Shown here piece after piece: positions 15,618-42,383 of a DNA stretch of 64,000 bases. The stretch is from Pyrinomonadaceae bacterium (lineage in GTDB: Bacteria > Acidobacteriota > Blastocatellia > Pyrinomonadales > Pyrinomonadaceae), in assembly GCA_030841085.1 (NCBI GenBank), contig JAVEDP010000022.1:372001-436000 (forward strand). The letters run 5' to 3'. Within the stretch, counting starts at the first letter, position 1, and each line of letters starts with the position of its first letter. Made by a program: the position numbers and the translations under genes. The notes below the pieces were generated by a model that had not been told where the DNA came from, did not search any database, and saw only the letters and a program-made list of their open reading frames with translations.

Positions 15618-15824
15618 CCAGTCCGCCCAGCGGACGACCGATAATAGCCCAGCGATTTTATCGCTGGGAAAAAAGACAGTAGCGACAAAGTCCGTGAAAT
15701 GGACGACTGAAGTGTTGATATAGACATCCCTTCAACCGTCCGCTTCACGGACTACACTTTCTTTGCCACTTATCCCAGCAGTGAACTGCTGGGCTACTAT
15801 CATTCGTCCGCTATTGCGGACTGG
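15618..15824. repeat. nested inverted-repeat element (~207 bp)
   Basis: Outer arms CCAGTCCGC and GCGGACTGG enclose hairpins CCCAGCGAT-TTT-ATCGCTGGG and CCCAGCAGT-GA-ACTGCTGGG, plus GTCCGTGAA facing TTCACGGAC. It occupies the spacer between the ABC ATPase and the LolB-like lipoprotein gene; no gene lies here. Confidence 0.75.
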
Positions 15825-17073: not shown

Positions 17074-17257
17074 TTAGGTCCGAAGGACCAGCAGTCAGTA
17101 GCCCCGTCCGTCAGGGCGGGGGGAGCTGTACTCTCGATGGCTCAAAGGCCCGAAGGGCCGATACAAATCGTGTCGCACCTTCGGCGCTTGGACACCACTG
17201 TCGCATCTACCCCGCCCTCACGGACGGGGCTACTAACTGTCGGTCCTTCGGACCTAA
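17074..17257. repeat. 184-bp inverted-repeat element
   Basis: The termini TTAGGTCCGAAGGACC and GGTCCTTCGGACCTAA are each palindromic and face each other; inside them are AGTAGCCCCGTCCGT and ACGGACGGGGCTACT with GGGCGGGG/CCCCGCCC. It sits in the divergent spacer between the LolB-like and PGPGW-type genes. Short plus-strand frames cross it but show no family features. Confidence 0.85.
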
Positions 17258-40491: not shown

Positions 40492-41826
40492 ATGTCAGAA
40501 CGTATCTATCGCGATCCGGTCCACAACATAATTAGGCTTCGCACCGACAACGACGAAGGCGCACTGATCATGCATTTGATCGACACACCCGAGTTTCAAC
40601 GGCTGCGTCGCATCAAGCAACTAGGCCTTGGTCTCTATACTTACCAGGGCGCGGAACACTCGCGCTTTACTCATTCGCTTGGCGCGTTCCACTTGATGAG
40701 CCGCGTGCTGGATCGCCTCGGTGAAAAGCATCGCATAGATAAACAGGATCGCGCGGCGGCGCGTGCAGCTGCGTTGCTGCATGACGTGGGCCATGGATCG
40801 TTTTCGCACGTGATGGAAAAGGTACTCGGCTTTCATCACGAGAAATGGACCGTAGAAGTGTTGCTGAGTGCGGAAACTGAGGTTGGACAGCGCCTGCGTG
40901 CACATTCAGCAGACTTGCCTGCGAAGGTTGCGGCAATCATCGAAGGCAAGTTCCAACCGGCCGCGCTGGCACAACTTGTTTCTTCCCAGCTCGATGTCGA
41001 TCGCATGGACTATCTGTTGCGCGATTCGCTGATGACGGGCGCGAAGTACGGCATTTACGATCTGGAATGGATCATCAACGCGTTAGCAATCGATGAAGAA
41101 CGTGATCGCATTTACGTGGCGGCGCGCGGTTTATACGCAGTGGAAGAGTATCTGCAGGCGCGTTACTACATGTTTCGACAGGTTTATTTTCATCGCGCGC
41201 TACGCTCGGCCGAAGCGGTGCTTCGTTCGATTTTGCGGCGCGCGCTGGCCCTACTTGGGGACGAAAAACCCGTTTGGCATGCGCCGGGCACTGCTTTTGA
41301 GAAAGTGCTGCGACGAAAATCACTGACCATCACCGAGCATCTCGAAATTGACGATTCGGACGTTATGTTTCACGTAAAGCAATGGCAACGGTCTGATGAT
41401 GCGGTGCTTGCCAACCTTAGCCGTCGTTTCGTCACGCGACGTCTTTTCAAAGCGATCGATTTGGATATGCCCGTCGACGAGCGCCCCGATTTCCTGACTG
41501 CGGCGCGCGCCTGTGTCGCCAAAGCCGGTTACGATCCTGAGTACTACTTTATCGAAGATCGCGCCAGCGATGTTCCTTACTACAATTACTACGCGCCAAA
41601 AGATGCGGAACCGAAGAGCCGTATTTACGTCGAAGACGGCTACGCGCGGCCGCGCATACGCGAGATTAGCGAAGTGAGCAACGTCGTGCGCGGACTGCAA
41701 CGCGGGTATGAGTTGCATCGCGTGTGTTTCCCTCCGGAAGTGAAAGAGGAAGTCTACCGGCTTTATCACGATGCGACGCCGAAGGAACCCTCAGCTGTCG
41801 GCTACGCAAACGCAAACGGAGATTAA
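40492..41826 (+). CDS. HD-domain phosphohydrolase (dNTPase/SAMHD1-like)
   Basis: A 444-residue protein. The HD metal site is H61 in [12 protein letters not shown]97-D98 in [13 protein letters not shown] and the late Asp in [13 protein letters not shown]. The start [12 protein letters not shown] and the [12 protein letters not shown] sequence are typical of the family including SAMHD1 and bacterial dNTP triphosphohydrolases, which hydrolyse dNTPs or related nucleotides. The substrate is unproven. Five bases after its stop begins the AhpD-like gene with an in-frame TGA, so the two are probably one transcript. Confidence 0.88.
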
Positions 41827-41831
41827 CCGCG

Positions 41832-42383
41832 ATGGCGAGAATAGCCGAGGCTGATGTTGAGCAGGCGGATCGTTATGTGAAAGACGTGCTCAAGGCACAG
41901 CGAAAGACCTGGGGCGCGCCGCTGCTCAATCACCTGCTGTACGCAAGGCGCCTTTCAATTTTCCGCGGCGCGCGCGCAATGTGGACGGGCATTGAGGCTT
42001 CCGGATTAATTGATGCGCGGTTGCGCGCTTTGATCAACCGGCGCGTGGCGGCGCTAAACGGTTGCGAGTTTTGACAGGACATAAATGCTGCCGTGAGCAG
42101 CCAGCTGGGTGTTTCGGATGAAAAGATTGAAGCCGTGGAAAACTACGCAACCAGTGATCTTTACAATGCCGCGGAAAAGATTGCGCTCGAGTACGCCGAG
42201 AGCATGACAATAACCGGAAGCGACGTCAGCGACGATCTTTTTGCGCGTCTTCGTTCTTTCTACAGCGAAGACGAGATAGTGGAACTGACGGCCACCATTG
42301 CCTGGGAAAATTCATCGAGCAAATTCAATCGCGCCTTGCGCGTGCCGTCGCAGCATTTGTGGAAAAGTGAGCGACAAACTTAA
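41832..42383 (+). CDS. AhpD-like/carboxymuconolactone decarboxylase-family protein with in-frame TGA (probable selenoprotein)
   Basis: Read through one TGA (42072-42074), the frame gives 183 residues, a normal length for this family. Conserved parts lie on both sides of the TGA: RALINRRVAALNGCEF before and QDINAAVSSQLGVSDEKIEAVENYA after, exactly in frame. The TGA is residue 81, the place of the second cysteine in the family's CxxC redox motif (C78, E79, F80, residue 81). AhpD-like selenoproteins with this kind of replacement are known. Such proteins reduce disulfides or peroxides. Five bases after the HD phosphohydrolase gene; ribosome-binding GGAG about ten bases before the ATG. Alternative: a nonsense mutation or sequencing error. 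Confidence 0.8.
42087..42101 (+). promoter_or_regulatory. SECIS-like hairpin after the TGA codon
   Basis: GCTGC (42087-42091) pairs with GCAGC (42097-42101), with loop CGTGA carrying a G in its second position. It begins 12 bases after the TGA. A lower ACAT/GTGT pairing could extend it. Bacterial SECIS elements are found at this distance and have a G early in the loop. Confidence 0.5.

Follow-up and report, generated by a model that had tools for sequence, protein, structure and literature searches.

The stretch of DNA analysed here, hereafter the window (64,000 nucleotides from a Pyrinomonadaceae bacterium), carries a gene of the CMD/AhpD-like family whose in-frame TGA, at positions 42072-42074, is very probably decoded as selenocysteine. 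As read from the sequence, the product would be a 183-residue redox protein of CMD/AhpD fold, in which Sec81 would most likely be the attacking residue. Selenocysteine at residue 81 had already been proposed in an initial annotation, and the selenocysteine genes of the host, the conservation of the TGA and a hairpin downstream of it favour the same reading. What was computed directly is the gene itself, the machinery genes and the conservation of both codon and hairpin, and from these we infer that selenocysteine is inserted in the cell. The elements on which the argument is built are the following:

40492-41826, plus strand: HD-domain phosphohydrolase gene, perhaps co-transcribed here (PF01966, PF19276).
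41818-41821, plus strand: GGAG, possible ribosome-binding site 10 nt before the ATG and inside the end of the HD gene (sequence reading only).
41832-42383, plus strand: putative CMD/AhpD-like selenoprotein gene, 183 codons plus stop, with codon 81, TGA, read as Sec (translation, NF053654, PF02627, AlphaFold).
42063-42065, plus strand: TGC, Cys78, first half of C-x-x-U (invariant in 29 aligned rows; Cys in 79 of 80 scanned loci).
42072-42074, plus strand: TGA, the probable Sec81 codon (TGA in all 19 close homologues among relatives and in all 80 scanned loci).
42087-42101, plus strand: SECIS-like hairpin, stem 42087-42091/42097-42101 and loop 42092-42096, CGTGA (consensus fold, covariation).

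The frame 41832-42383 is 552 bases long, and its sole internal stop in translation is the TGA at residue 81, in the context NGCEF*QDINAAVSS, the frame being open on both sides. The initial annotation had described a gene split by this TGA at the second redox position, with family sequence continuing in frame on both sides and an HD gene five bases upstream, and each element of that description holds: a single internal stop was found and the coordinates are correct, the translation reads C78-E-F-U81, the read-through protein matches NF053654, and the HD gene ends at 41826, with the ATG at 41832. The match to this NCBIfam model reaches 324 bits (cut-off 310; 317.9 bits for the same protein in the genome search) and covers model residues 1-178 of 179, while the Pfam CMD model PF02627 is matched with 45.6 bits, over a cut-off of 23. 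The score against TIGR01926, a peroxidase-related enzyme, is 34.2 bits, below its cut-off of 81.8.

The family is a known one. The full-length match, NF053654.1, is named “YciW-related (seleno)protein”, so that the name already says seleno, and no difference was seen between it and the window protein. A study of 2005 on the Sargasso Sea described 27 sequences of AhpD-like COG2128 (YciW) selenoproteins with a CxxU motif (PMC1088965), and AhpD-like selenoproteins figure also in a survey of 2006 (PMC1794560) and in reviews of 2022 and 2026 (PMC9312934; PMC13188914). The window protein has in common with the COG2128 group the AhpD-like family, a CxxU motif with Sec in second place and a downstream hairpin. 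The accessible text of the 2026 review links its AhpD-like COG2128 row to TIGR01926, under whose cut-off the window protein falls, and NF053654 does not appear in that text (PMC13188914). Furthermore, the 2006 survey counted for Acidobacteria 4 selenoproteins of 3 families (PMC1794560), and therefore selenoproteins are not new in this phylum. Because AhpD-like CxxU proteins have been in print since 2005 and an NCBIfam model exists, the gene belongs to a known kind, as the initial annotation had supposed; it is a further member of an already catalogued selenoprotein family.

The conservation of the codon was followed in two sets of genomes, which overlap and share contigs. A search of 294 genomes, host included, returned a close full-length homologue, defined by at least 250 bits, in 19 genomes (host included), and all 19 carry TGA at the codon. 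In turn, a scan of GTDB, with one genome per bacterial and archaeal species and a motif located close to the C-terminus and excluding the Cys/Sec site, kept the best 80 of 211 confirmed loci, and the site is TGA in every one of these 80; no Cys version of the close clade was found among them. Seven more distant relatives (L041, L042, L044, L047-L050) also have TGA at the site, and the three best-scoring relatives without it (L043, L045, L046) have Cys exactly there, at 36-37% identity, a reading limited to these three, many weaker stop-free matches lying outside it. The underlying alignment has 29 rows, the window itself and 28 loci out of L021-L050, without L036 (the window copy) and L040 (a fragment). 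Since the same TGA recurs in 19/19 and 80/80 homologues, it is neither a chance event nor a sequencing slip. The initial annotation had suggested that homologues be inspected for Sec or Cys at this site, and both are what the homologues carry; one mark of a bacterial selenoprotein is indeed that its in-frame UGA occupies a site filled by Sec or Cys in homologues, and this UGA occupies such a site.

In a tree of 77 rows, built without L125, L142, L150 and L156 (partial or frame-broken) and for which the tool warns of long branches, 70 rows, the window included, form a single well-supported group that carries 11 phylum-level labels. Since some phyla do not come out as clades in this tree, transfer of the gene between phyla is possible.

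Three loci present damaged copies. At L040, in genome G005 of the same genus, what is left of the gene between the HD gene and the downstream gene is its first codons and its last half, and the stretch with the TGA and the hairpin is gone, G005 keeping selA and tRNA-Sec; the gap is either a real loss or an assembly fault. At L142 (Dictyobacter vulcani) and L156 (Rubrobacter marinus), both isolates, the TGA is kept and the frame is broken elsewhere, by either decay or sequencing error. Such copies would be expected if the TGA of the window were a plain nonsense mutation or a sequencing error and only an 80-residue fragment were made, and L040 indicates that loss may happen in this lineage. Nevertheless, this explanation is extremely improbable in view of a TGA shared by all the scanned loci in different phyla and flanked on either side by conserved protein sequence, of the Cys found in the best-scoring relatives that lack it, and of the conserved hairpin.

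In bacteria, the SECIS element is a stem-loop that follows closely on the UGA and has a G among the first bases of its loop. The window hairpin, GCTGC-CGTGA-GCAGC, has a 5-bp stem and a 5-base loop and begins 12 nt after the TGA, with 17 nt from UGA to loop, which agrees with the rule in both loop and spacing. Over 26 aligned sequences, 95.4% of the 130 stem cells are paired, and pairing falls to 18-62% of cells when the partner is shifted by 1 to 3 columns. Three of the five stem pairs have changes on both sides, a count equalled by 3 of 500 shuffles, and the covariation score was reached by none of the 500; moreover, RNAalifold recovers the same stem unaided.

A larger comparison was made over the core loci, the 73 of the 80 with NAAV or NAAI after the TGA. 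All five pairs form in 71 of these 73, rows which are related by descent and are not independent trials, as against a mean of 2.2 and a maximum of 7 loci over 2,000 runs in which the codons of the same protein were redrawn. The best stem of the same shape at the other codon offsets tried is found in 18 of the 73. GCT serves as the first Ala codon of the stem in 69/73, while it makes up 10.8% of the Ala codons in the same genes. Taking all 80 loci, 71 have five pairs, two have four, six have two and one has one; in this register the stem is not formed in 7 of the 80, which are more distant ones (L151-L155, L157, L158).

The folding energy of single sequences was also considered as SECIS evidence and set aside in favour of the family-wide pairing test, being weak for the window: its hairpin alone has -7.1 kcal/mol, a value reached by 34.7% of codon-redrawn versions. 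In the same energy test, 12 of 26 Sec loci are at or below 5% and the three Cys relatives lie at 29 to 51%; one of these three, L043, nevertheless forms a hairpin close to the corresponding position.

The host genome (4.69 Mb, 98.88% complete) contains the genes that the initial annotation had proposed to look for: selA (540.8 bits), selB (359.5 bits), selD (354 bits) and tRNA-Sec with anticodon UCA are all present. The host selD has an in-frame TGA of its own, in SCSG*AAKLSP. There are two tRNA-Sec genes with anticodon TCA, one of 73.3 bits on contig C10 (G000:C10:60168-60262, L002) and the other of 67.7 bits on C4 (G000:C4:20689-20783, L003). With 93% identity over 105 bases and different flanks, they are separate loci and not a double count. 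Two other genomes, G016 and G067, likewise have two tRNA-Sec matches of at least 69 bits, and the accessible text of a 2017 survey reports a second tRNA-Sec copy with compensating changes in eight bacterial genomes, as well as two or more tRNA-Sec candidates in 151 genomes of all kinds (PMC5330540). Contig C28 has another selB candidate (195 bits, 384 aa), which was rejected, being under the cut-off; it adjoins a frame of 714 aa, and the pair may well be EF-Tu and EF-G.

These data bear on another reading, in which the UGA would be translated as a different amino acid, either Cys through an opal-decoding tRNA or Trp under an altered genetic code. The Cys present in the three relatives without TGA would fit the first of these options. 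Yet TGA terminates 9 of the 31 long non-overlapping reading frames in the window by mechanical count, and so retains its stop function elsewhere in this stretch; of the eight tRNA-bearing loci scanned, the two tRNA-Sec genes alone have a UCA anticodon; and the selenocysteine machinery and the hairpin are both there, all of which makes a different amino acid very improbable.

Of the 19 genomes with the full-length gene, selA is present in 17 (G001 and G257 are the exceptions) and tRNA-Sec reaches 65 bits or more in 17; G001, which is 67% complete, and G048 have no tRNA-Sec match above 52.3 bits, and G257 does carry tRNA-Sec. Twenty genomes were hand-picked for spread from those of the 80 loci; all 20 have selA above the cut-off, and tRNA-Sec reaches at least 61 bits in 19, the exception being G304, with a match of 48.7 bits. 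The co-occurrence of the gene with selA was dropped as evidence: selA is over the cut-off in 231 of the 294 relatives anyway, these having been sampled from the phylum, so that the company of the machinery is consistent with the selenocysteine reading without being strong evidence for it. Selenocysteine use looks common in the phylum.

By the general bacterial route, SelA and SelD of the host would produce Sec-tRNA-Sec, which SelB, bound to the hairpin at 42087-42101, would bring to the UGA of this message. The product would be an all-helical protein of 183 residues, with the CMD/AhpD fold and the redox pair C78-E-F-U81. Sec81 would most likely attack and reduce an oxidised or electrophilic substrate, and would then be regenerated via a Cys78-Sec81 selenenylsulfide, with Cys78 as the resolving residue, that a thiol donor would open. 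This chemistry of Sec81 and Cys78 is proposed from the motif and the modelled fold.

The AlphaFold model has a mean pLDDT of 95.1, and its best matches among PDB folds are the debrominase Bmp8 and CMD/AhpD-like proteins, with query TM-scores between roughly 0.64 and 0.87 for the 37 matches whose E is 0.001 or lower. The top match is Bmp8 6ohj (TM 0.84 and 0.83), and AhpD of Mycobacterium tuberculosis is a weak match at rank 41, with E 0.97; by sequence profile, Atu0492 is the best match and Bmp8 the second. The CxxC/CxxU pair within the CMD fold is present in the window protein, as are, by comparison with M. tuberculosis AhpD and PA0269 of Pseudomonas aeruginosa, the helical fold and the pair together. 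A published comparison names Glu, Cys, His or Tyr, Cys and His as the proton relay of AhpD, and, in the accessible text of that study, Cys48, Cys51 and His55 are invariant in the AhpD-like set and Glu36 is replaced by His in one member (PMC3141380). In contrast with AhpD and PA0269 as presented there, the window protein has Ala at the relay Glu site (C-12) and Asn at the last His site (second Cys +4). No Glu occupies the former site in any of the 80 scanned loci, which have Ala, Ser or others instead, and the latter is Asn (U+4) in all 80; Asp is found at U+2 in 79 of them. A more distant Sec relative, L050, has both the relay Glu and the His according to the alignment, therefore Sec and the relay are not mutually exclusive in the wider family.

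Given that the relay Glu and His are absent in 80/80, the term “AhpD-like” used in the initial annotation is safe for the fold and the CxxU motif and does not extend to the mechanism. A selenol is already ionised at neutral pH, and the absence of the relay residues would fit a selenol able to lose its proton unaided.

The missing relay is also what would be expected if Sec were inserted and the enzyme were not a peroxidase of AhpD type, the fold having been turned to some other reduction, for instance of carbon-halogen bonds as in Bmp8. Bmp8 chemistry has been linked with the selenium deiodinases. Bmp8 (6ohi, 6ohj) is the closest solved fold, has a CxxC pair and stands second by sequence profile, and in the alignment it likewise has no His at the last relay site; the Asp at U+2 and the Asn at U+4 point in the same direction. 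Nevertheless, Bmp8 has Cys where the window protein has Sec and is only 20-21% identical to it, many AhpD-like proteins come close to it in score, Atu0492 surpasses it by sequence, and no conserved neighbour points to halogenated substrates, so that such a function appears improbable for this enzyme. A broader proposal, namely that of an AhpD-fold branch fixed for Sec across many phyla, which would have lost the relay, gained C-x-F-U-x-D-x-N and taken up a non-AhpD reduction, perhaps of halogenated or other electrophilic organic compounds, is speculative and on balance unlikely.

The genomic context of the gene yields no clue to its function. The HD gene lies upstream in 5 of 30 loci, all of one genus (L031, L034, L037, L040 and the window copy L036), and was not found within the 1.5 kb flanks of the same-genus locus L033; this neighbour is thus kept only in part of the genus. 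Clustering of 380 reading frames, each 100 codons or longer, from around the window copy and the 80 scanned loci, with flanks that reached 3 kb at most and were often shorter, disclosed no neighbour family that is widely conserved around the 80 loci. Deriving a function from the neighbourhood was therefore rejected, the largest neighbour cluster comprising 5 loci and the HD gene being present in 4 of the 81 stretches (L079, L080, L081 and the window, of one genus). Elsewhere in the window, at 15774-15822 and 17210-17255 on the plus strand, about 1.4 kb apart, there are two Acido-Lenti-1 RNAs (RF01687), with scores of 37.3 and 41.7 bits and a gathering score of 37.

Gene callers that take TGA as a stop cut this gene in two, though it is very likely whole. 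Intact copies exist in cultured bacteria, Ktedonobacter racemifer DSM 44963 and Dictyobacter aurantiacus, in which both the Sec assignment and the substrate could be tested at the bench. Furthermore, the apparently strict use of Sec in the clade, beside distant Cys relatives, makes a fair case for studying what selenium contributes without the usual helper residues. The value of this gene would lie in its clean assignment, in the apparently strict Sec use of its clade and in its cultured relatives.
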